Positions 11,519 to 54,127 of a DNA stretch of 63,575 bases are shown piece by piece (the stretch's first letter is position 1; the number at the start of each line of letters is the position of its first letter). The stretch covers positions 1 to 63,575 of the forward strand of contig NZ_JAPCID010000025.1 of NCBI RefSeq assembly GCF_027587175.1, given 5' to 3'. Position numbers and translations under genes: made by a program. This stretch comes from Solirubrobacter deserti (GTDB lineage Bacteria; Actinomycetota; Thermoleophilia; Solirubrobacterales; Solirubrobacteraceae). A model generated the notes under the pieces. That model was not told where the DNA came from, ran no database searches, and worked only from the letters and a program-made list of their open reading frames with translations.

Positions 11519-13123
11519 ATGACCCGCGCTCCCCGCCTGGTTCTCACGGCCCTCGGACTGGTGGGTCTACTCGCCGTCAGCTCCCCGGCCGCGGCGGCGG
11601 GCGCACCGCTGCGACTGCGGCCCGCCGAGCCGGTCACCACCAAGGTGACGGTCACGGCGCCGGCCACCGTGCGCCTGCGCGCGCGGGTCCGTGGCTGTGC
11701 CGAGGCGCGACTGCAGCTGCGAGCCGCCCGCAGCTCCACCGCCGTCCGCGTCAGCTCGTCCCGTTATCGCTCCTTCAGCGGCCTCGCGCTGGCTGAGAGC
11801 GGGCGGCTGCAGGCCGTGATCTCCGCGCGCTGCCCGCGCGCGCGGGTGGAGATCGCCTCCCTGGCGGCCACGAGCCGGGCCCGCATCTCGGTACGGCCGC
11901 CGAACGAGGCGCCCGCCCCGGCGGCGCCCGCGCCGACCCCCAGCGCCACGCCGACCCCCAGCGCCACGCCGGCCCCGGCGATCGTCGCCAGACCGACGGC
12001 GACGCCCAGCCCTCCCCCGTCGGCGAACGTCGCGCGCCGCTGGGGGCTGATCGGCAACCGCACCACGGGCGCCGCCGAGGTGCGCCGGGCCGGCGTGACC
12101 GTCAAGGTCGTGCGGCTCTCGTGGAAGGACCTCGAGCCCAAGGAGGGCCAGGTCTCGGCCGCGTACGTGAACGCCAAGAAGTCCGAGATCGCCACCTTGC
12201 GCGCTGCCGGTCTGGACGTGATCGTCGACAGCGGCCTGCACGACACGCCGCAGTGGATCCACAGCCGGGCCGACAGCTATCTCGTCAGCCAGTTCGGCGA
12301 GCGCTGGACGGCGAACACCGACGGCGACCTGGCGATCGACAAGAGCGACGCCAACCTGATTTTCAACCCCGCGCTGCGCACGATCGCCGCCACCTACCTG
12401 CGGCGGATCGGCGAGACGTTCGGCTCGACGATCCATGCCATCCGGATCGGCGGCGGCCGCTGGAACGAGCTCGGCTACCCGCCACCGAAGACCAGGACCA
12501 ACAGCAACTCCTACTGGGCCTACGACGCGCTCGCGCAGCAGCAGAGCCCGGTACCCGGCTGGAAGCCCGGCGACGCGTCACCGAACGGCGAGGCCCAGAA
12601 GTTCTACAGCTGGTACCTGCGGGCGCTCGTCGACTTCCAGCAGTGGCAGATCGACACGGTGCGCACCACGTTCAAGGGTCCGCTGATGGTGCTCTATCCC
12701 GGCTGGGGCATCCGGCCCGGCCAGGCCGCCGCGGCGGTCGCCGACCGCCTGCGCAACCGCACGCCACCCGAGATCAACGCCGAGATCCAGCGCGGCTTCG
12801 ACTGGACCAGCCAGGTCGCGGCCATCACCGACCCGCTCGTGTTCCCCGCGACGACCTGGGTCGACGCGCGCTTCGGCAGCGACACGGCGGACGCGACCCA
12901 GTGGCGCCCGCCGCACTTCCTGCGCTCGATCGCCGGCCCGCAGGCGACGCTCTGGGGCGAGAACACCGGTCAGGGCACGCGCGCGGACCTCGAGTTCGCG
13001 GTCGCTCAGACGGTCAAGTACGGCCTCGCGGGCATGGTCTGGTATCGCGAGGAGGAGCTCGGCCTCAACGGCTGGGCGACGCTCAACGACTACCGCGCGA
13101 CCATCGCCGGGTCGAGCTCGTAG
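11519..13123 (+). CDS. Secreted GH42-like glycoside hydrolase (TIM barrel)
   Basis: The 534-residue protein from ATG 11519 (GGAG five bases before) has a signal peptide ending near PAAAAG and a basic beta-rich segment to about residue 135. A Pro/Thr/Ala linker with PTPSATPTPSATPAPA follows. The rest is a TIM-barrel glycosidase of the beta-galactosidase/GH42 type: LSWKDLEPKEGQVS matches the early barrel, RIGGGRWNELGYPP carries a probable acid/base Glu, and ATLWGENTGQG a probable nucleophile Glu. The substrate is unknown, but it sits in a glycan locus. Its 3' end overlaps the convergent membrane transferase gene by 34 bp. Confidence 0.82.
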   Translation: MTRAPRLVLTALGLVGLLAVSSPAAAAGAPLRLRPAEPVTTKVTVTAPATVRLRARVRGCAEARLQLRAARSSTAVRVSSSRYRSFSGLALAESGRLQAVISARCPRARVEIASLAATSRARISVRPPNEAPAPAAPAPTPSATPTPSATPAPAIVARPTATPSPPPSANVARRWGLIGNRTTGAAEVRRAGVTVKVVRLSWKDLEPKEGQVSAAYVNAKKSEIATLRAAGLDVIVDSGLHDTPQWIHSRADSYLVSQFGERWTANTDGDLAIDKSDANLIFNPALRTIAATYLRRIGETFGSTIHAIRIGGGRWNELGYPPPKTRTNSNSYWAYDALAQQQSPVPGWKPGDASPNGEAQKFYSWYLRALVDFQQWQIDTVRTTFKGPLMVLYPGWGIRPGQAAAAVADRLRNRTPPEINAEIQRGFDWTSQVAAITDPLVFPATTWVDARFGSDTADATQWRPPHFLRSIAGPQATLWGENTGQGTRADLEFAVAQTVKYGLAGMVWYREEELGLNGWATLNDYRATIAGSSS

Positions 13124-14565
13124 AGGCGTAGCTCGCCGAGCGTCCGGCCGCGGGCCGAGAAGATCACCTGGCCGTTGCGGTCGAGCCACTGCTGGAGGTG
13201 CTCGTCCGCGAGCCCGAAGCCGTCCTCGATCAGCCGCGTCGAGATCAGCGCGTAGCGGGCGTTCTGCTCCTGGATCTGCTGCGGCGTCGCCCACTCGCCG
13301 ACGTCCGCGCCACGCTGGACGAACTGCGCGATCTCCTCGGTCACCGCCACGCGCGCGTGCCTGGGCAGGTGGCGTGCCGTCCACTGCTCGTACGCGAGGT
13401 AGGTGTCGTCGCTGCCGCTGCGCAGGGTCCCCCACGAGCCGGCCGAGGCCACGATCCAGAGGCCGCCGAGCGCGACGACGGCGGCCCGGACGACGACGGG
13501 CCGCGCGGCGATCGCCGGCACCAGGAGCGCGACGCACGCGAGCGACGGGACCGCCATGAAGTAGAACATCTGCTCCTCGAGCGTGCCGATGAAGACGCCG
13601 TAGACCAGGTACGCGGAGGCGCACAGCTGGATCGCGACGAGCACGGTCACGCCGGGGTGCGCCGGCCCCCGCCGGATCTCCCGCACCCGCGCCAGCGCGG
13701 CGAGCGTGCCGATCCCGCACAGCGCGTAGGACGCGCCGTAGTACGGCAGGTTGCGCCGCAGCGTCTCCACGAGCGTGACGCCACCGCCCTCCTGGTTGAA
13801 GCCGGTCTCCTGGCGCGCGCCGATCAACCGCAGGAAGCCTGACGCCTTCTCGTCGAGCAGCGCCGGCAGCCCGCCCGTGGCCAGCACCACGGCGAGGTAG
13901 GCGATGTAGGTGGCGCACGCCAGTAGGGCCGCGGTCAGCACGAGCCGGCGCAGGGAGGGCACGAACAGCGCGATCAGCAGCATCGGCAGCACGGTCAGGT
14001 ACATCGCCGTGTCCTTGGACAGCATCGCGAGCCCGAACGCGACACCCGCGAGGGGCGCGCGATAGCGGTCACCGATCCCGCGCACGGTCAGCGCGGCCGC
14101 GCCGGCGACGACGAAGAACAGCGTCTGCGCCTCCAGGAACAGGCGCGTGTCGAAGCGGATCACGAACGGGTCGAGCGCGTACAGCACGCCCGCGACGATG
14201 CCGGGGATGAGCCCGGCCGTCCGCCAGACGAGCGTGAACAACATCGCGCACGTGCAGGTGCCGATGACGGCCGGGACCACGCGCAGCTCGGTGATCCGGC
14301 CGACGCTGTCCGGGCGCACGCCGAAGAGGTCGATGACGCCGCCCAGCAGGTAGAAGAAGCCCGGTGGGTGCAGGTTGAACGCCGCTCCGTGGAGCTCGAC
14401 CCCGTTCCCGGAGGCGACCGACTCCGCGATGCGGCTGTAGGTCACCTCGTCGATGTGCAGCTCAGTGGCGGTGCGCAGGCCGATCAGCCGCAGCGCCAGC
14501 GCCAGGCCGGCGACGAACAGCAGCGCCGGCAGCCAGGTCCACGCGCTAGCCGATCGCTCGCGCAT
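13090..14565 (-). CDS. GT39/ArnT-like integral membrane glycosyltransferase
   Basis: The 491-residue protein starts at ATG 14565. It has about ten hydrophobic helices and the N-terminal loop RLIGLRTATELHIDEVTYSRIAESV, whose acidic residues resemble the catalytic DE of GT-C (PMT/ArnT) enzymes. A further loop reads NLHPPGFFYLLGGVIDLFG. Such enzymes move a sugar from a lipid-phosphate donor to a target outside the membrane. A soluble C-terminal domain (about residues 390-491) follows the last helix. The start overlaps the stop of the GT4 gene by 20 bp. The neighbouring DPM1-like GT2 could make its lipid-linked donor. Acceptor unknown. Confidence 0.85.
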   Translation of the reverse strand: MRERSASAWTWLPALLFVAGLALALRLIGLRTATELHIDEVTYSRIAESVASGNGVELHGAAFNLHPPGFFYLLGGVIDLFGVRPDSVGRITELRVVPAVIGTCTCAMLFTLVWRTAGLIPGIVAGVLYALDPFVIRFDTRLFLEAQTLFFVVAGAAALTVRGIGDRYRAPLAGVAFGLAMLSKDTAMYLTVLPMLLIALFVPSLRRLVLTAALLACATYIAYLAVVLATGGLPALLDEKASGFLRLIGARQETGFNQEGGGVTLVETLRRNLPYYGASYALCGIGTLAALARVREIRRGPAHPGVTVLVAIQLCASAYLVYGVFIGTLEEQMFYFMAVPSLACVALLVPAIAARPVVVRAAVVALGGLWIVASAGSWGTLRSGSDDTYLAYEQWTARHLPRHARVAVTEEIAQFVQRGADVGEWATPQQIQEQNARYALISTRLIEDGFGLADEHLQQWLDRNGQVIFSARGRTLGELRLYELDPAMVAR

Positions 14566-32808: not shown

Positions 32809-33049
32809 GCCCGCGCGATATCCCGCACCCGTGAACACCGCGTTGTCTCGTGCGCTGCCGCTGACCGCCTGCAGTCTTGTCGACGCCTGCCTTCTGAATC
32901 TCGAGCGCTGGTCCTCGGCGCCCGTCGGTTCGGGCCTTGACCGTTCGTGTTCGTGGGCCGCGTCTTCTCAGTACGCGTCCACTCGACAATGTTCCCGTCA
33001 ACGAGCCGGCGAGTTGTTGCCTCGCGCGTGGCGGGAGGCTTCACGATTC

Positions 33050-34244
33050 TGAACCGCCCCGGCTTTGATGGAGGCCGTTTCTATTGGGTTTGAAGTTGCT
33101 TGTAGGTACTGCTGTTCGAACTGCGCTGGGGCAAGTCTGCCGCAGGCAGAGTGCAATCGTGCGTTGTTGAACCAGTCGACCCACTCCAGGGTCGCGAGCT
33201 CGACGTCGGCGAGCGTCTTCCAGGGTCCTTCGCGGCGGATCTTCTCGGTCTTGAACAAGCCGATCGTGGTCTCGACGAGGGCGTTGTCGAGCGCGTCGCC
33301 GACACTGCCGACGGAGGCGTCCACGCCGGCGTGGATCAGGCGCTGGGTGAAGGCGAAACTGAGGTACTGGCTGCCGGCGTCGTTGTGGCAGATCAGGCCC
33401 GCGCCGGCCGGGATCCCGGCCCGCTCGCGGGTCCAGAGCGCCATCTCCAGCGTGTCGAGCACCAAGCTCGTGCGCATCGTGGTGTCGGCCTTCCAGCCCA
33501 CGATCCGGCGTGAGAACGCGTCGATGACGAACGCGACGTAGACCACGCCCGACCGCATCGCCACGTACGCGAAGTCCGCGACCCAGAGCCGGTTTGGGGC
33601 GGTCGCGGTGAAGTCACGCTCGACCAGATCCATCGGTCGATCCCCTCGTCCGAGATCGTCGTGCGCCTTGCCTTGCCGCGGACGACGCCCGCCGAGCCGG
33701 CCCGGCGGATCAGCCGCTCGACCGTCAACGCGCCACCGGCACGCTCTCGGCCTGCAACGGCCACCACACCTTCCGGGCACCGTAGCGCCCGCGCGATGCC
33801 GCATGCACACGCTCGATCTCAGCCATCGGCTCGCGATCGCGCAGCGTCCGCGCGCTCGGCTCGGCCCGGCTCCGCGGGCTTTGACGGCGTAATACGTCGA
33901 CCGGGCGATCGCAACACCCGGTAGATCGGCTCGGTCCCGAACATCTCGCGGTGCTCGTCGATGAACACCGCTAGCGCTTCGGCGGTTGCGGGTCGAGCTC
34001 CCGCGCGAAGAAAACCGACGCCGCCTTTGAGGATCTCGTTCGCCCGCCGCAGCTCGCGGTTCTCGCGCTCGAGCTCCTTCACGCGCTCGACCTCAGCGGT
34101 TGCTCACGCCCGGCCGCGCGCCGCCGTCGACCTCGGCCTGGCGGACCGCTTGCGCAGCGTCTCGTTCGTCAGCCCGAGCTTGCCGGCGAGCGAGGTGATC
34201 GCTGCCCACTGCGATTTGTAATCGCGCTCGCGCTCCGACACCAC
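33050..34244 (-). pseudogene. IS3-family transposase relic (orfA/orfB), several frameshifts
   Basis: From GTG 34244 an orfA start is legible (VVSERERDYKSQWAAITSLAGKLGLTNETLRKRS). The frame breaks, and a second frame holds KELERENRELRRANEILKGG, the leucine-zipper end of orfA. Further frames contain TVERLIRRAGSAGVVRGKARRTTISDEG and then the rve/DDE domain: WVADF (first D), CHNDAGSQYLSF (second D) and DNALVETTIGLFKTE (E). At least three shifts separate these pieces, so the element cannot make a transposase. I could not match clear terminal inverted repeats. Confidence 0.87.
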
Positions 34245-34405: not shown

Positions 34406-36829
34406 ATGTTAAAGGGTTCGGCAAGTCGGTCACTGTCGCAGATGAGAGCCGCCGAGCGATGGCGCAGGCGGTGTGCCGTAGCCGCTGTAGTCCTCACGGC
34501 CGCGTGCGGCCTCGTGAGTCCGGAAGCTCATGCCGCGCGTCAGACGGTCACGCTGAATCCCGCGCTGACGTGTGAGATCTCGACGATGAGCAGCCAGGCC
34601 TGCGCCAACCAGGCAACGCCGCTCGTCGGGAAGCTGGCTTGGTCACCGTGGAACGACCGCTACCGCGCGGTGGCGAAGTTCGACTTCAGCCAGATCCCCA
34701 CTGGCAGCGAAATCGTCTCCGCCCACGTCGTGGTCGACTGGTCGTGGTACGACACGCCATCCTCGAGTTGGATCTACCTGCACGAGTTGACAGCGCCGTT
34801 CACCGCCGGCGCGACGTGGACCAAGCGGGACGGGGTCAACTCCTGGGCCAGTGCGGGCGGCGACTTCCTGGCGCAAGAGGCGGCGCCGCCGGACGCGGGC
34901 TACAGCGGCGAGGACACCGAGTGGGGATCGTTCGAGATCACCAACCTCGTGCGACGTTGGTACACCGGCACGTCGCCCAACCACGGTGTGCTCTTCAAAG
35001 CCGGGGAAGAGGGCCAGACCGCCAACGACGTCGTCGAGATGGAGAACCTCCGGCTGCTGCTCACGTATGCGCCCCCGGACACCGCCGCGCCGGGTGTCGA
35101 CGCGGGCGGCGAGCTGGTTGGTCTCGACGGCCGGTACACGAAGCAGACCTCGGCCGTAGTGGCGGTCTCTGCCGAGGACGATTCGAGGGGTGTGTCAGAG
35201 CTCCGTGTCGTCGACGCCGGTGAGGCGAGCCTGGGCGGCGCGCTCCTGGATTGCGGCAGCCCCCGCGTGTGCGACACCGAGGTGAGTGAGGCGTTCGCGG
35301 TCAATCTGGCGGGTCTGTCCGGCGGCAAGCACGTGCTGCGTGCCACCGCACGCGACGACGCCAACAACGTCGGGACCTCGGAGAGCTGGGAGATCATCAT
35401 CGACCGTCAGGCTCCGGGCATGGCGACCGACATCGACGCCTCCAAGCGCTCCGGCCAGCCAGCGCAGGTGCTGTGGGTCGAACCGGAGGATCCCGACTTG
35501 GCAGACGGGAGCCCGGGCTCCGGGACGTCGAGTTTCTCCTACCGCTACCGGTTGAACTCGGGCGCCTGGTCGGCGTGGACACAGACCACCGTGCCCCGGT
35601 TCGCCGTCGACCCGGCGGTGGTTGGTCATACGATCGCCGTCGAGATCAAGAGCATCGACGCTGCGGGCAACGAAGGCCCGGTGGCCTCCGCGACGACAAA
35701 CGTCGTTGTCAACGACTCGACGGCAAGGTCCAAGTTCAGCATCGGTGAGCTCGTCACGGACGGGGCCCAGGCAAGGACCGCCGACGACCCCGAAGAGCCT
35801 CCGGTCGCCTACGAGTGGGACTTCGATCCCAATCAACCCGACGTCATCACCTTTTGCACCCCGAAGTTCGGGATGCGGCATTCCAAGATCGGGACCGGCG
35901 TGCGCAACCTGTACAACGCAGTCCGCTTCTACGGGACGATTCGCTGCTGGAACAACGGCCTGAACTCGAACGAGAAGAAGCTGTCCGCTCAGTCCGGCTA
36001 CCGAGCCGAAGTGTGTCTGTACTCGGTGTCTCCTCGTCGCAGGCTCGGGGAATGCGTCACGGAGAAGGCCAGCCCTCGCAAGAACTCCGCGCTGCCCAAG
36101 GACGACGACATTCCCGGCATCATCGACGTCTGCACCGCGGGCAATCGCGACTACGTCATCGAGGTCGAGATGGTCGGGTTCGGTCCGACCATCGAGGCCG
36201 CCGAAGAGGACGAGCTCAAGCCGCCGGGATTCAAGACGCTGTGGCCGTTCAACTGCAACGAGCCGGGTGCCTGGCGCGCGATCGCCTACGAGGATCGCGA
36301 CGACGAGAACAAGAATCCCGGGTACACGCTCGGGGGCCGGATCGTCGAGCCCCCGTGTTACAACAGTCCGAACTTCCCCGGCAACCCCTGCGACGACCAT
36401 CCCACCGGTGGGAGCCGCAACGGCACCCTCGGATGGAACGCCCATCACATTATTCCCGCCAACGAGGGCGCCAACGTGACGAACGTCAAGGTCGTCCAAG
36501 CGGAGCGCGCGATGACCTACGCGTACTCCTGCGGGCTCTCGGCGAACAACGCGCCCAACGGCGTGTGGCTGCGCGGGTCATCGCTCTGGAGTCCCACGCA
36601 CGGCTACAAGAATCTCCTCAAGAACCATCCCACGGCGGCCAAGCGCCCGAGGCACGCGCTGCACCGAGAGGATGTCTATGAGGCGGTCGCCGATGCGCTC
36701 GATGCACACGCCGACCTCAATGGCACCTGCCACGACGCAGCGGCGCTGTCCTCGAAGCTGCAGGGCATAAAGGACGGCATCGCCGACGCCTCGTGGCCCC
36801 ATCTGCCGGCGACCGCGAACCAGCCGTGA
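34406..36829 (+). CDS. Secreted multidomain toxin candidate with C-terminal AHH nuclease domain
   Basis: The 807-residue protein has an N-terminal export signal (basic start, AVAAVVLTAACGLVSPEAHA; a Cys gives a possible lipobox). Residues about 50-225 form a DNRLRE-type beta domain (RAVAKFDFSQIPTGSEIVSAHVVVDW, EWGSFEITNLVRRWYTG). Ig/FN3-like domains run to about 440, with NVGTSESWEIIID and SSFSYRYRLNSGAWSAWT. An unrecognised linker follows. At N678-A-H680-H681-I-I-P begins an AHH domain of the HNH/Endo VII superfamily, supported by NNAPNGVWLRGS and the terminal HREDVYEAVADAL. AHH domains are nuclease toxins of polymorphic toxin systems. The small gene 67 bp downstream is the likely immunity partner. 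Confidence 0.8.
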   Translation: MLKGSASRSLSQMRAAERWRRRCAVAAVVLTAACGLVSPEAHAARQTVTLNPALTCEISTMSSQACANQATPLVGKLAWSPWNDRYRAVAKFDFSQIPTGSEIVSAHVVVDWSWYDTPSSSWIYLHELTAPFTAGATWTKRDGVNSWASAGGDFLAQEAAPPDAGYSGEDTEWGSFEITNLVRRWYTGTSPNHGVLFKAGEEGQTANDVVEMENLRLLLTYAPPDTAAPGVDAGGELVGLDGRYTKQTSAVVAVSAEDDSRGVSELRVVDAGEASLGGALLDCGSPRVCDTEVSEAFAVNLAGLSGGKHVLRATARDDANNVGTSESWEIIIDRQAPGMATDIDASKRSGQPAQVLWVEPEDPDLADGSPGSGTSSFSYRYRLNSGAWSAWTQTTVPRFAVDPAVVGHTIAVEIKSIDAAGNEGPVASATTNVVVNDSTARSKFSIGELVTDGAQARTADDPEEPPVAYEWDFDPNQPDVITFCTPKFGMRHSKIGTGVRNLYNAVRFYGTIRCWNNGLNSNEKKLSAQSGYRAEVCLYSVSPRRRLGECVTEKASPRKNSALPKDDDIPGIIDVCTAGNRDYVIEVEMVGFGPTIEAAEEDELKPPGFKTLWPFNCNEPGAWRAIAYEDRDDENKNPGYTLGGRIVEPPCYNSPNFPGNPCDDHPTGGSRNGTLGWNAHHIIPANEGANVTNVKVVQAERAMTYAYSCGLSANNAPNGVWLRGSSLWSPTHGYKNLLKNHPTAAKRPRHALHREDVYEAVADALDAHADLNGTCHDAAALSSKLQGIKDGIADASWPHLPATANQP

Positions 36830-44105: not shown

Positions 44106-44471
44106 CTACGGCGCGCGGCGCGCGCGGCTTTCGCATCCGCGGCGGCGTTGCGCAAGTAGCTCGCGTTCGGGGACGCCGAGCCACCGGCTGAGTTCGCCGA
44201 GGTCCCAGGCGTTGGGCCCGCGTTCGGTGATCTCGCTCGGAATCAGGCTCGAGCGCGCGAACGCCCTGGCGTCCGCTTCCAGATAGGGGCCGGGGAGCCT
44301 GCGGTTGAGGATGGCGCCGGCGTACACGCACATCGCGAGCACGAACGGCAGGTCGGGCGTGCCGCAGTCCGGGGTGTCGAGCAGGAAAACGCGGCGCCGG
44401 GTGCACAGCGCGCGCGGCCGGTGCCGGTAGGTGACCATGAGGATGCCCATGTGGTTTGTAGGCGCCGTCAC
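44106..44471 (-). CDS. Hypothetical protein, last gene of the parB-sigma operon
   Basis: The 121-residue protein has a hydrophobic middle (DLPFVLAMCVYAGAILNRRLPGPYLE) followed by EARAFARSSLIPSEITERGPNAWDLGELSRWLGVPERELLAQRR, which looks like a ZF-less ImmA-type or HTH-like tail (helix, turn, LGVP). It overlaps the sigma-factor stop by four bases, so it is translated with it. I do not recognise a family; a partner or regulator of the sigma factor is a possibility. Confidence 0.62.
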   Translation of the reverse strand: MTAPTNHMGILMVTYRHRPRALCTRRRVFLLDTPDCGTPDLPFVLAMCVYAGAILNRRLPGPYLEADARAFARSSLIPSEITERGPNAWDLGELSRWLGVPERELLAQRRRGCESRARRAP

Positions 44472-45013
44472 GAGAAATTTGCCCCCTCGGCGCGGCGCAG
44501 TTGCGCGCGGCCTTCGGAGAGACGGCGGTTCACAGCGGTGTAGGAGCTGGCGTTCAGGGCGGCGATCTCGTGGTAGCCGTAGCCGAGCGCCTGCAACCCG
44601 AGGGCTTGACGCTGTGGCGGCTTGAGCGCGTCGAGGCTCTTGACGCGCTCGCGATGCAACTCGGCGGCGAGCGCCTGGTGGAGCGGGTCACCGTCGAGAC
44701 CGGCCGGGTCGGGCAGTTCGTGCTCGAGCTCGCGGTCGGGCCAGAACAAGCCGGCGGGACGCTCGCGATCCTCGCGGGCCATCCGCCAGGCCTCGTGCAG
44801 CGCGACCGTCGACAGCCACGCGAACCCGCGTCGATCGAGCGCGACGTCGTCGCGGCGGACCAGTTGCATCCAGGCGTAGGCGCAGGCGTCGTCGACGACG
44901 ACGTTCCCGGACCCGGGCATCAGGTAGCCGATGCGACGCTCCAGGCGGCGGTGGTTGGCCGAGAAGAAGTCGGCGATCTCCGCCCGCCGCCCGCGGCTCA
45001 CGGCGGGGCTCAT
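44468..45013 (-). CDS. RNA polymerase sigma factor, ECF-like
   Basis: The 181-residue protein has a sigma region 2 (FFSANHRRLERRIGYLM, DDACAYAWMQLVRRDDVALDRRGFAWLSTVALHEAWRMAR) and region 4 (LDALKPPQRQALGLQALGYGYHEIAALNASSYTAVNRRLSEGRAQLR). It resembles ECF sigma factors and controls a set of promoters in the host or on the element. It overlaps both neighbours by four bases in a long operon that begins with parB. A sigma factor within a transfer-element operon suggests the element directs its own promoters. No anti-sigma gene is obvious. Confidence 0.85.
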   Translation of the reverse strand: MSPAVSRGRRAEIADFFSANHRRLERRIGYLMPGSGNVVVDDACAYAWMQLVRRDDVALDRRGFAWLSTVALHEAWRMAREDRERPAGLFWPDRELEHELPDPAGLDGDPLHQALAAELHRERVKSLDALKPPQRQALGLQALGYGYHEIAALNASSYTAVNRRLSEGRAQLRRAEGANFS

Positions 45014-45788: not shown

Positions 45789-46697
45789 CTAGGCGGCGGC
45801 CGGTTCCTCGACCAGGTCGAGCGCGTCTTCGAGCCGGCGCGCGAGCCGGTCGATCAGGTCGGCGATCCGGTCAAACGCGTCATCCGGGGTGTGCTCGCTC
45901 CAGACCGCGAGATACGGGACCGAGTTGTCGGCGGTGTTCAGGCCGAGAAAACTGCAGACGGTGAAGGCGACCGATTCGGCGACCAGCTCCTCGGTGGCGT
46001 AGTCCAACGTCGGGTCGTCGGGCTGGTGGTCGAGCCGGACGAGCGCGTGCGCGAGCTCGTGCGCCAGGGCGGCGGCTTGCTGGTTGACCGAAACGGCCGG
46101 GTTGATCGCGATCCGCCGCTCGGCCGGATGGAAGTAGCCGTCGCAGCCTTCGCGCATCGCCTCGCGTTCGACCGTGACGCCGATGCCAGCGGCGAAGGTT
46201 TCCAGCTCGGGAATCGCCCACGCGAGCGTGTCGCCCTCGATCGGGGCGATCGGCGGGTCCAGCGGCGCCGGCATCGCCGGCGCCGGGAGCGGTTGAACTT
46301 GGGCGCGGTCGAAGACCGGCTCCAGCCGGTAGAACGCGCGCGGCTTCTCGGTCGCGGTTGCGCCGGCGTCCCGCCACGCCTGCAGGCGCTTCTTGGACGG
46401 CTCGCAGCGCGCCCACACGCGAATGCGGGCGTGTTCGCCTTTGCGCACGCAGTACCCGAGCGCCAGCCACGCGCGAAACCCCGCGACCCGGGTCGCGTCG
46501 GGGTCCTGGAATGCGATCAGCAGCTGGTTGCCCAGGCTGTAGCGGCGCAGGCCCGTGCGGGCGCGCACGCGCAGCCACGCTTGCCAGCCGGCGCTGGTGC
46601 GCAGCTGCGCAACCGCGCGGACGCTCAGCTCACGGTCGCGGGCACGGCGCTCGGCACGCTCGGCTTCGCTCAGGCGGGGGCTCGTGGATCGAGACAT
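45789..46697 (-). CDS. ardC: ArdC-type antirestriction/metallopeptidase protein
   Basis: The 302-residue protein has an N-terminal ArdC single-stranded-DNA-binding domain (SAGWQAWLRVRARTGLRRYSLGNQLLIAFQDPDATRVAGFRAWLALGYCVRKGEHA). A zincin-like peptidase domain follows, with HELAHALVRLDHQ (HExxH, near residue 215) and a later Glu in ATEELVAESVAF. ArdC proteins protect incoming conjugative DNA from restriction by coating or modifying host defence. A GGAGG lies upstream of ATG 46697. It sits between parB and DUF3072 in the backbone operon. Confidence 0.88.
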   Translation of the reverse strand: MSRSTSPRLSEAERAERRARDRELSVRAVAQLRTSAGWQAWLRVRARTGLRRYSLGNQLLIAFQDPDATRVAGFRAWLALGYCVRKGEHARIRVWARCEPSKKRLQAWRDAGATATEKPRAFYRLEPVFDRAQVQPLPAPAMPAPLDPPIAPIEGDTLAWAIPELETFAAGIGVTVEREAMREGCDGYFHPAERRIAINPAVSVNQQAAALAHELAHALVRLDHQPDDPTLDYATEELVAESVAFTVCSFLGLNTADNSVPYLAVWSEHTPDDAFDRIADLIDRLARRLEDALDLVEEPAAA

Positions 46698-46784: not shown

Positions 46785-48584
46785 TTAGGCGGCAGCCGAC
46801 TCGCCCGCGGCGGGCCCGGTGTCGGGCTCGACCTCGGCGACGTCGTCGGGCTCGTTCTCCTCGGCGCTGTCGTCGGCCTCGTGGTCCGTCATCTCGTCGG
46901 TCTCGACCGCGGGCGCGGCCGCACCGGACGCGGCGGCAGCGGCGGCGCGGTGAGCCTGCTCTGCTTCGGCGTAGGTGGCGTGGGCGCGGTTGACGGCCTG
47001 CTCGAGCCGCTCAAGCGAGGCGGGCAGATGCGGCCCGCAGAGCTTGCCGAGCGCCTTGGCGGCGGTGTCCGTGCGCGAGCCGAAACGCGTCGCCGGCATG
47101 CGCTGCGCGGTCGGGAGGACCAGTCGGCTGGCGTAGTGCTCGGCCGCGATCACGACGAGCGCGCGGCCGTAGAGCTCGCCGGCGGTCTTGGCGCCGTCCA
47201 GGTAGCGCCACAGCCACTTGACCGGGGCTTCGGGGTTGCGCGAGTCGCCGTAGTCGATACGGAGGCGGCCGGGGGAGCCGTCTTTGCGGGTCTTGGTGAC
47301 GTCGGTGCGGAACTCGCCGATCACCAGCCGGATGCCGTTGGCGGCCAGGCGCTGCACGCGCTCGCCGGTCTGCGTGTACGGCGAAGCGTCGAAGTCCGGG
47401 CCGAGCAGGGCGTAGACGAAGAACCGCGCGACGCGCATGTCGGCGGGGTCGACGACCGAGAGCCCGTCCAGCAGGCCCTGGCCGAGGTCAAGGTTGGCGC
47501 CGTGCGCTTGGTCGGCGAGCTCGCGCAGGGCGCTGTCGCGCTCGCGCGCCGCGGCGGCCAGCGGGTCGTCGGCTTGCTGGGCGAGGCGCTCGGTCCGCGA
47601 TTGTGCCTTCTCGGCGGCGGCCGCGGCGACGCGCGCCTCGAGTTCTGCGACGGCGCGTTTGATCGCCGTCTTGGTGAGTTCGCGGTACAGGCCGCGGTCG
47701 ACGATCACGGGGCGGCTGCGCTCGAACTCGACCAGCACGCCGGCGGCGCGGGCCTGGTCGACGTCCTCGTCGCTGAAGCGCACCTCCGGCGTGCCCCAGG
47801 CGTGACGGTCAAGCTGCTTGTAGAGCACGCAGGCCTGCTGGTAGAGCGCGTCGGTCTTCTTGCCCAGCCGCAGCTCGGCGATGGTGTCGGCGCGGATCGC
47901 GTTCAGGTGCGCGGCGAACACCTTCGTGTCGCCGTGGCGCAGGGCCGAGTCCAGAACCCAGCCGGGCTCGCGGGCCAGCCGCTCGGCCGCCCACCCGTTG
48001 CCGTCAGCCAGATAGGCCAAGACCGCGTCCAGCAACGGGGCACTGACCTGCCCGATGGCCAGCAGCTGATCGACCGCCGACAGCGCGATCGCGCCCTCGC
48101 CGACCATCGCCTGCGCGGCATCGGGCAGATGCAGCAGCTTCACGCGCGCGGCCACGCGCCGCGGGCTCCAGCCGAGCGCCTGGGCGGCGCCGTCCTCGGA
48201 GAGGCCGCGGGCGAGCATCGCCTGCACGGCGCGGGCTTCCTCGCGCGGGTCCAGGGCCTTGCGCGCGATGTTCTCCACCGCCCGATCGGCGTCCTCGCTC
48301 TCGCCGTCGCGGACCACCACCTCCACCTCGGCCAAGCCCAGCTGGGTCGCGGCGGCGTGGCGATGGAAACCGGCCACCAGGTCGAAGTCCTCCGGGTGCT
48401 CGCCGTCGGCGCTGGGGCAGACGACCAGCGGGACCAGCAGGCCCTGCAGCGCGATCGAGGCGGCCAGTGCGTCGACGTGCGCGGGGTCCAGCGCGCGGAC
48501 ATTCTCGGCCACGCGGATGCGGTCCAGCGAGATGCGCAGCTGCGCAGACACGCGAGTGCTCAACTCAGGTGCGGGTGAAGCCAT
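46785..48584 (-). CDS. parB: ParB/RepB-like partition protein with long C-terminal region
   Basis: The 599-residue protein starts with a ParB N-terminal nuclease-like domain (IRVAENVRALDPAHVDALAASIALQGLLVPLVVCP, then DFDLVAGFHRHAAATQLG). A ParB HTH (ARGLSEDGAAQALGWSPRRVAARVKLLHLP near residues 120-150) follows. After that comes about 400 residues of charged helical sequence ending in an acidic tail (DEMTDHEADDSAEENEPDDVAE). Such long ParB-like proteins occur on actinobacterial plasmids and ICEs. No ParA is in view. The leader contains an exceptional hairpin (48620-48734). Confidence 0.85.
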   Translation of the reverse strand: MASPAPELSTRVSAQLRISLDRIRVAENVRALDPAHVDALAASIALQGLLVPLVVCPSADGEHPEDFDLVAGFHRHAAATQLGLAEVEVVVRDGESEDADRAVENIARKALDPREEARAVQAMLARGLSEDGAAQALGWSPRRVAARVKLLHLPDAAQAMVGEGAIALSAVDQLLAIGQVSAPLLDAVLAYLADGNGWAAERLAREPGWVLDSALRHGDTKVFAAHLNAIRADTIAELRLGKKTDALYQQACVLYKQLDRHAWGTPEVRFSDEDVDQARAAGVLVEFERSRPVIVDRGLYRELTKTAIKRAVAELEARVAAAAAEKAQSRTERLAQQADDPLAAAARERDSALRELADQAHGANLDLGQGLLDGLSVVDPADMRVARFFVYALLGPDFDASPYTQTGERVQRLAANGIRLVIGEFRTDVTKTRKDGSPGRLRIDYGDSRNPEAPVKWLWRYLDGAKTAGELYGRALVVIAAEHYASRLVLPTAQRMPATRFGSRTDTAAKALGKLCGPHLPASLERLEQAVNRAHATYAEAEQAHRAAAAAASGAAAPAVETDEMTDHEADDSAEENEPDDVAEVEPDTGPAAGESAAA

Positions 48585-48619
48585 GACGGGGTTCTCCGTC
48601 CCTTCCTCTCAGGGCCCGC

Positions 48620-48734
48620 GCCGGGCGGCGGGCCGATCGCCACCCCTCCGCACACCCGCCCATGCGCTTTGAGCCCGGCACGCCAGCTCACGGCGGGTGT
48701 GCAACCGTGAGGGGTGGTCGGCCCACCGCCCGGC
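48620..48734. repeat. Large nested imperfect hairpin in the parB leader
   Basis: Four arms nest around a 31-nt loop (48661-48691). An 11-bp perfect arm GCACACCCGCC/GGCGGGTGTGC (48650-48660 with 48692-48702) is innermost. A 9-bp arm CCACCCCTC/GAGGGGTGG (48640-48648 with 48709-48717) follows. A 7-bp arm GGGCCGA/TCGGCCC (48630-48636 with 48718-48724) is next. The outer 9-bp arm GCCGGGCGG/CCGCCCGGC (48620-48628 with 48726-48734) closes it. That is 36 paired bases separated only by a 1x6 loop, a 3-nt bulge and a single mismatch. It lies 36 bp upstream of parB. It could be an origin (oriT, sso), a partition site or a structured leader RNA. Confidence 0.85.
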
Positions 48735-49065
48735 CTCCCTACGCCGTCGCCTGTCCGCGCTCTACGACACCGCGACTGGTCGTTGCTCGAGCGGCGCCCG
48801 TCAGTTGCGCCGGCTCACGCGGCCGCACCGAGTCGGCGTCGTAAGACCACTTATCGAGCGTCCGTCGCGATGCGCAACGTTCGGACACGCGACTGAGCCC
48901 CGTTCGCGCGGCCGGACGAGCTGCCGCACCGCCCTATTCGGCGGAGATCGAATTGCGCGCTTGTCCACGAAAGGACGCTTTCGATTGCCGTCAAAATAGG
49001 TCGGCCGAGGGCCGCTTTCGTCGAGGGACCGGTACCCACTGCGGTCCGGCCGAAGAATGCCTCCG
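48735..49065. other. Intergenic region beyond the parB hairpin
   Basis: About 330 bp without a gene I can support; frames here have no start signals and shadow-like composition. It lies between the hairpin and the AlbA-type gene, so the parB promoter is probably here. Confidence 0.45.
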
Positions 49066-53609: not shown

Positions 53610-54127
53610 CGCGGTTCCTCGGTCGCGAAGACCGTCCAGCGCGTGACTTGCCACTCGCCGTGGCTCCGCTGCAAGAGGACCTGGTTGCGTGTCTCCCCCA
53701 CAAGCGTCCCACGGCTGGTGGCGGTACGTTCTCGCAGAGTCACCAGCACCCGGGCTCGTGACCCGCGAACCGCCGCGACTTGCTCGACAGCCACAACGGT
53801 CGAGCGGCTGCTGGCTCGCTCAATCCGAAGCGCGCGCAGCCAGGAGCGAGTGGGTCGGGTGCGACGGAGCTGGCGACGGTAGTCGGGAGCGGCGAGCGCG
53901 AGCTCGCGCCGCCACGCTGTGAGCCGCGTGCGCGAGGTCCAGTTGGTGGCCGTCAAGGCGTACGCCGTCGCCACCCGGGCTGCTTGGCGGTCCGCCGGCG
54001 GCGGACCGGGCGTCGCGTTCGCCGCTGGCGCCGGCTTCGGTAGCTCGACCGGTTGCGTCGCGTTGGTCGCGGCGACGCCGACGGCCAGGCAGCCGACCAG
54101 CAGCGGTATGCGCAGTCGGCGATCCAT
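53606..54127 (-). CDS. Exported/membrane-anchored transfer-operon protein (TcpC-like fold candidate)
   Basis: The 173-residue protein starts at ATG 54127, which shares one base with the stop of the gene before it (TGATG). It has an N-terminal signal or anchor (LLVGCLAVGVAATNA), a Pro/Ala linker, then an alpha-beta domain ending VLLQRSHGEWQVTRWTVFATEEPR. That ending resembles the NTF2-like domain of TcpC/conTP-type conjugation proteins. The longer 666-residue frame is a shadow of the neighbouring gene. It probably forms part of the transfer channel outside the membrane. Confidence 0.68.
   Translation of the reverse strand: MDRRLRIPLLVGCLAVGVAATNATQPVELPKPAPAANATPGPPPADRQAARVATAYALTATNWTSRTRLTAWRRELALAAPDYRRQLRRTRPTRSWLRALRIERASSRSTVVAVEQVAAVRGSRARVLVTLRERTATSRGTLVGETRNQVLLQRSHGEWQVTRWTVFATEEPR

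Follow-up and report, generated by a model that had tools for sequence, protein, structure and literature searches.

A long hairpin immediately upstream of a parB gene in Solirubrobacter deserti is one member of a family of related hairpins whose probable role is that of promoters active solely during the entry of their element into a new cell as single-stranded DNA. The hairpin occupies positions 48620-48734 of contig NZ_JAPCID010000025.1, whose 63,575 nucleotides (nt) are referred to here as the window, and which is one contig of a 7.09-Mb genome from the order Solirubrobacterales, phylum Actinomycetota. Judging from sequence and predicted structure, we give a slightly better than even chance to the interpretation that this element is a single-stranded-DNA promoter resembling Frpo of the F plasmid, but one that would operate without a -35 box. 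Structure, family membership, spacing, gene types, motif and strand bias were computed, and from these we infer the strand transferred, polymerase binding, the start site, the timing and the role of a small accompanying hairpin (A'/A'').

The preliminary description of this DNA reported four successive arms of 11, 9, 7 and 9 base pairs (bp) around a 31-nt loop, and reading of the sequence shows this to be exact, with 36 bp paired in total. From the base upward, 48620-48628 pairs with 48726-48734 (9 bp), 48630-48636 with 48718-48724 (7 bp), 48640-48648 with 48709-48717 (9 bp) and 48650-48660 with 48692-48702 (11 bp). Positions 48629 and 48725 form a C/A mismatch, and two bulges also interrupt the stem, one of 3 nt (48637-48639) and one of 6 nt (48703-48708, AACCGT), the latter facing a single C (48649). 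Folding of positions 48600-48760 yields -51.3 kcal/mol as DNA (z -4.1) and -94.7 kcal/mol as RNA (z -5.2), and in neither case was any of 200 dinucleotide shuffles equally stable. When the 160 nt upstream of each of 10 gene starts in the segment were compared on the + strand using mononucleotide shuffles, the only strong structure was that of parB (z -4.6, the next best being -2.2). The hairpin is separated by 35 nt from the parB ATG (48584, minus strand), and a small downstream hairpin, in which the sequences A' and A'' pair at 7 of 7 bp around an 8-nt loop, is formed in the predicted transcript fold.

Relatives of the ParB protein are found in 17 of 232 genomes of Solirubrobacterales, at 22 places. 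In all 14 of the loci examined, one of which is from the species of the window, parB is preceded by a hairpin of the same plan but mostly with different arms (the other places are partial matches or the window itself), and in 8 of the 14 a second hairpin lies between parB and the next gene. The loop is long in the window and in a copy from genome G001, and short in the other copies at parB loci. Two covariance models, R1 built from 7 sequences and R2 from 8, gave matches at E≤0.01 in 18 and 16 of the 232 genomes, respectively, some of them away from parB. From the parB-locus survey and the matches to both models we selected 55 copies in 27 genomes of the order. Some further matches were left out, among them G164:C1:388917, G164:C1:389956 and G148:C185:3363, and G077a, a possible false match that lacks a downstream start codon, was kept in the family counts. 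Multi-copy loci in relatives hold two or three copies each, all in the same direction as judged by the higher-scoring orientation. With stricter filters, R1 gave no match at E≤0.001 across 396 genomes drawn from the phylum and 10 across 399 genomes drawn from the class, all 10 within the same order. This absence beyond the order is weak evidence, because, at the thresholds applied to whole genomes, both models miss the copy in the window.

The position of these hairpins relative to genes is highly regular. A start codon lies 15-32 nt downstream of 51 of the 55 copies (20-24 nt in 40 of those), and 50 of these 51 have a string resembling a ribosome-binding site (RBS). The four copies lacking a start are G132a, located at a contig end, G168b and G148c, where the frame falls below our 60-aa limit, and G077a. 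Classified by sequence patterns and by eye, with two of the ParB-like proteins known from the homology search, the 51 downstream proteins include 19 that are ParB-like, 19 ArdC-like, 4 DUF932-like and 9 others. The first three kinds, 42 of 51 in all, are types found in the F leading region or among known establishment genes, and Pfam searches with a few of the downstream proteins identified ParB, ArdC, DUF932 and Trans_reg_C, as well as SNF2 and helicase domains in one large protein. A same-genus copy away from parB, at G001:C1:360766-360851 (L096, L118), precedes a protein of 1223 aa containing SNF2 and helicase domains. In 16 of 24 copies examined with our own gene caller, the distance to an upstream stop codon on the same strand is no more than 31 nt, which leaves little room for an ordinary promoter.

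This distribution bears on two functions proposed in the preliminary description, an origin of transfer and a ParB-binding site. Although the window hairpin adjoins parB and its segment carries genes for type IV secretion, the element also precedes ArdC-like, DUF932-like and other genes in relatives, where two or three copies can occupy one locus, each before a start codon. Furthermore, the window holds no match, at up to 3 mismatches, to the 16-bp palindrome of the parS consensus (which may not be this ParB's own site), and members of the two relaxase families searched are not nearby. We therefore regard either function as highly improbable.

The arms of the hairpin have changed together during divergence. 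In alignment A5, which was built from sequence only, 89.4% of cells pair and sliding the partner destroys the signal. Both sides have changed in 9 of 27 pairs, a number reached by 2 of 500 shuffles, and the covariation score was matched by none of 500. The search for compensatory changes that had been recommended was thus successful in this alignment, and related hairpins with such changes in many genomes of the order support the earlier suggestion of a selected function. A double-stranded operator (a palindrome to which a regulator of the element binds) or a terminator (closing the gene before it) would account for a long inverted repeat that in relatives often lies just 2-31 nt past a stop codon. 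However, protein binding to duplex DNA does not require arms that change together, the preceding gene of the window ends 331 nt away and no T run follows the hairpin. The fixed spacing to the next start and the strand asymmetry described below also speak against this role, which we consider improbable.

Covariation and constant spacing initially suggested a riboswitch or leader RNA, an idea that was lowered once a count of mismatches ran the other way. For this count, the 5' arm was aligned to the reverse complement of the 3' arm and isolated mismatches were tallied, with both transition mismatches scored alike. Two copies outside the anchor pattern, G161b and G154a, were positioned manually both here and in the motif counts below. 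Read in gene sense, the stems of the 55 copies contain 45 A·C and 15 G·T mismatches (one-sided binomial p = 7e-5), and those of 37 representatives contain 29 and 9 (p = 8e-4). Since an A·C excess in gene sense corresponds to G·T pairs on the antisense strand, it is the antisense strand that seems to fold, and not a sense RNA. The small A'/A'' hairpin carries no such bias. In an anchored recount, it was present in 52 of 55 copies (it was not found in G077a) with 10 A·C versus 13 G·T mismatches, or 8 versus 9 among representatives. Its mismatch ratio differs from that of the main hairpin with Fisher p values of 0.010 for all copies and 0.060 for representatives. Hence, the A·C excess is not a general property of these sequences. 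Under looser scoring, 45 of 55 copies have 7 or more matched bp and 48 have a loop of five, and a simpler score is reached by 43 copies versus a shuffled mean of 10.7. The mismatches of the small hairpin give no positive sign that it acts in RNA.

These counts bear on the possibility that the family is a structured leader in the sense mRNA, which would block read-through or control translation of establishment genes. The A·C excess is the opposite of the tolerance shown by sense-RNA helices, and the conserved bulge is more sensible on the other strand. Searches of Rfam gave no match at the hairpin in the stretches scanned: at the gathering threshold the sole match in the window was ALIL at 33902-34016, and five loci searched at E≤1 produced one match, far below its gathering score and elsewhere than the hairpin. 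Nevertheless, a leader would agree with the constant spacing to the start codon, with the position between genes of tight operons and with the mutually exclusive A/A' and A'/A'' stems. It would also have a precedent in EGeRS1 of pLS20, which likewise precedes ardC, has inverted repeats beside the RBS and blocks read-through, according to PMC8708921. On balance we consider a sense leader unlikely, and the structured RNA named among the first suggestions is disfavored in this form.

A promoter-like motif also points to the antisense strand. The conserved 5' bulge has GYGC-N-A-N-N-(A/C/G)-T as its reverse complement, with CGGG coming next in most copies, and this motif resembles an extended -10 box held open; its numbering here follows the extended -10 of sigma-70 promoters. 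The GYGC-N-A part is matched by pattern in 53 of 55 copies, although conservation of G-16, Y-15, G-14, C-13 and A-11 exists partly by construction because these were in the search pattern. The T at -7, which was outside that pattern, is present in 53 of 55 copies. Folds of the antisense DNA place positions -18 to -14 in a helix in 96% of copies or more, -13 in 91% and -5 to -3 in 85% or more, whereas the share of copies with an unpaired base is 91% or more at each of -11 to -8 and 64% at -7. In duplex DNA the motif resides on the opposite strand, directed away from parB, and it is turned toward the gene only by folding.

The preferred interpretation, a promoter formed by folded single-stranded DNA, would combine these features as follows. 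In double-stranded form the element would not serve parB, since the -10-like motif is on the opposite strand and directed away. On entry as one strand, the gene's antisense (template) strand would fold into the hairpin, which would place YGC-N-ANN(A/C/G)T on the non-template side, its bases -11 to -8 being open from the outset as a bulge between two helices. RNA polymerase could then bind the folded motif without a -35 box and initiate within the lower stem, some 58 nt ahead of the ATG and close to minus-strand position 48642. Transcription would leave the base of the hairpin and proceed through A', A'' and the RBS into parB and ardC, and A' of the transcript may pair with A'' to form a small hairpin near the mRNA 5' end that leaves the RBS open. 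The expected outcome is a burst of ParB and anti-restriction protein ahead of second-strand synthesis.

Alternatively, the antisense strand might fold in the recipient as a priming site or single-strand origin used by RNA polymerase or a primase, with the downstream gene being incidental. Such a role would fit the antisense folding indicated by the mismatch count, the SSB and Prim-Pol proteins encoded in the segment and the title of Masai and Arai (1997), where Frpo is described as combining promoter and primer functions. However, an origin needs neither two or three copies per locus, as seen in relatives, nor a location 15-32 nt before a start codon, and we find this explanation quite doubtful. 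Among the four initial guesses, a single-strand origin nonetheless came nearest: a single-strand element is retained, but its proposed task is to drive the downstream gene and not to serve as an origin.

Several observations weigh against a promoter made of single-stranded DNA. Position -12 is G in 28 copies, C in 19 and A in 8, but never T, which is usual there in sigma-70 sites and therefore counts against an ordinary sigma-70 reading. Position -15 is T in 41 copies and C in 14. The apical stem, 5-11 bp across the family, is too short to reach -35, and so the folded arm has no -35 box. In the mismatch count, part of the A·C excess falls at one recurrent junction that our filter removed only in part, and the p values are too small because the copies are related. 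The single standard-stem transition mismatch of the window copy is G·T in sense, and this copy is 5.7 kcal/mol more stable as sense DNA. Across the family the difference in fold energy between strands is weak, with antisense more stable in 31 cases and sense in 17 (p = 0.03), or 21 and 13 among representatives (p = 0.11). The two Frpo hairpins of F have 0 G·T and 2 A·C on the antisense strand, which leaves the strand test without a working positive control. Relaxases that could have fixed the transferred strand were sought around the parB loci, but neither family searched has a member close by (PF03432 occurs in 0 of 9 genomes, and PF08751 in 7 of 9 but not near parB). Little covariation is seen in alignment A7, made of closer sequences, for which the score was reached by 41 of 500 shuffles and the pair types by 310 of 500. 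Finally, no convincing second copy was found in the genome of the window, where the R1 scan misses even the known copy.

Table 1. Positions in the window of the hairpin, its predicted parts and the genes it precedes.
Feature	Position	Strand	Basis
Whole element in gene sense (hairpin and A'' repeat)	48613-48735	-	Covariance model R2 match 48613-48731, 32.9 bits, E 0.013; weak R1 match 48614-48735, 17.7 bits, E 1.8; homologous copies upstream of parB in relatives
5' arm on + strand (proposed template side)	48620-48660	+	Sequence reading, folds
Apical loop, 31 nt	48661-48691	+	Sequence reading
3' arm on + strand (proposed non-template side)	48692-48734	+	Sequence reading, folds
Extended -10-like motif TGC-A-ACCGT = TGCAACCGT; bulge part 48703-48708	48700-48708	+	Sequence position checked
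A' arm of small downstream hairpin, GGCCCGC in gene sense	48628-48634	-	7/7 bp with A''; predicted transcript fold
A'' arm, GCGGGCC in gene sense; would pair with A' if A' is free	48613-48619	-	Pairing, predicted transcript fold
Predicted transcription start region, about 48642	48636-48645	-	Inferred from -10 spacing
Ribosome-binding site GGAG, 9 nt before ATG	48594-48597	-	Sequence reading
ParB-family gene, 599 aa, ParB_N and HTH_ParB	46785-48584	-	Pfam
ArdC-like gene (ArdcN, zincin domains), next downstream of parB	45789-46697	-	Pfam

The segment in the right part of the window resembles an integrative conjugative element. Its minus strand encodes a TrbC/VirB2-like pilin (narrowly below the Pfam cut-off), a TraG-type P-loop protein and a 3D-domain protein, and the same series continues with SSB, a Prim-Pol protein, an AlbA-domain protein, the hairpin, parB, ardC and a weak sigma-region-4-like protein (below cut-off). 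A ParB protein of 100% identity is present in Solirubrobacter sp. CPCC 204708. The contig breaks about 15 kb upstream of parB in both assemblies (63575 minus 48584 in the window; parB at 15000 on contig G200:C416 of the same species), a coincidence suggestive of a repeat or a circular form at that point. A 95-nt tRNA-Ala (GGC) predicted by ARAGORN is located at 53992-54086, between two genes of the conjugative segment. Elsewhere in the window, the ALIL frameshift pseudoknot adjoins an rve integrase gene (32998-33633), the two probably making up one IS3-type element, and a 747-aa protein encoded at 34586-36829 has a C-terminal AHH nuclease domain and is perhaps a polymorphic toxin. Sigma-factor-like proteins are encoded near hairpin genes at 12969-13469 of locus L060 (regions 2 and 4) and at 44468-45013 of the window (weak region 4), and the protein after copy G006c is sigma-factor-like by eye only. 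Comparison with a plasmid collection at the DNA level gave only short matches, covering at most 27% of the query.

Hairpins before genes of these kinds are also present on plasmids of other actinobacteria, with sequences that differ from those of the Solirubrobacterales family. Nine other plasmid regions were inspected. Long hairpins precede parB/ardC-type genes in Cellulomonas, Microbacterium, Mycetocola and Dietzia, shorter ones precede such genes on Tomitella, Gordonia and Cnuibacter plasmids, and the Streptomyces and Kocuria regions contain no comparable hairpins (the longest being 18 and 17 bp). Direct repeats of hairpin stretches occur in all five regions tested (Dietzia, Tomitella, Gordonia, Cellulomonas and Mycetocola). 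Ten chosen hairpins from these plasmids, several of which are repeats of each other, have 18 G·T and 1 A·C on the antisense strand. In the Cellulomonas, Dietzia, Microbacterium and Mycetocola loci (L127, L128, L129 and L134), hairpins of up to 169 nt and 62 bp lie before parB, ardC and their neighbors, and they are repeated within the plasmid in L127, L128 and L134. The -10-like sequence CTACGAT is kept on the non-template arm of three long Mycetocola hairpins and of the Microbacterium one. The parB-to-SSB block of the Mycetocola plasmid runs toward its mobC/relaxase end, the orientation expected if oriT is located there.

A broader proposal, which we put forward tentatively and with rather less than even confidence, is that Actinomycetota possess single-stranded-DNA promoters of their own, which fall into several families unrelated in sequence and turn on ParB, ArdC and further establishment genes as an element enters. 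In Solirubrobacterales, the family would use a pre-opened extended -10 without a -35 box, followed by a small hairpin at the mRNA 5' end, and the adjoining sigma-like protein could even read it. Through single-stranded promoters, conjugative elements can produce protective proteins while still lacking a second strand, and if the proposal is true, such early expression extends to Actinomycetota. Our searches of open-access papers gave no report of elements of this kind in Actinomycetota, and the texts of PMC11541004 and PMC12826799 mention neither Actinobacteria nor actinomycetes. Passages of these two papers describe searches for Frpo that used BLAST with known Frpo sequences or a -35/-10 consensus, which are unlikely to find the Solirubrobacterales family. 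Once a positive control exists, the count of A·C versus G·T mismatches could help to separate folding of one DNA strand from folding of RNA by sequence alone.

The closest parallels are the Frpo/ssi3 elements (Frpo1 and Frpo2 of F, and ColIb-P9). In Frpo of F, the promoter motif arises only on folding of the single strand, as stated in PMC11541004 and PMC9849209. The Solirubrobacterales hairpins similarly lie in non-coding DNA before genes of leading-region kinds (the leading region of F encodes SSB, a ParB-family protein and a DUF932 protein on one strand), would present a promoter-like motif only after folding and share an unpaired stretch with the corresponding arm of F Frpo2, where 8 nt are unpaired in the predicted fold. 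However, known Frpo elements have both -10 and -35 boxes according to PMC9849209, whereas the Solirubrobacterales family has an extended -10-like motif alone, an apical stem of 5-11 bp and a distance of 15-32 nt to the start codon. A blastn comparison of the two F Frpo regions with the 55 copies gave no significant match (best E 0.53). Given the lack of a -35 box and of sequence similarity, the family would work like Frpo but is not filed with the F/ColIb elements.

The second parallel is EGeRS1 of pLS20-type Bacillus plasmids, which, as described in PMC8708921, is also repeated and structured and immediately precedes the RBS of establishment genes, ardC among them. The same source gives EGeRS1 a length of 400-600 bp with many inverted repeats, in contrast to the single hairpin of about 83-123 bp seen here, and the two are set apart by this description only. 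A further difference concerns the strand: in the EGeRS1 system, PMC8708921 identifies the transferred strand as the non-template strand, whereas in the Solirubrobacterales family it is the antisense strand that appears to fold.
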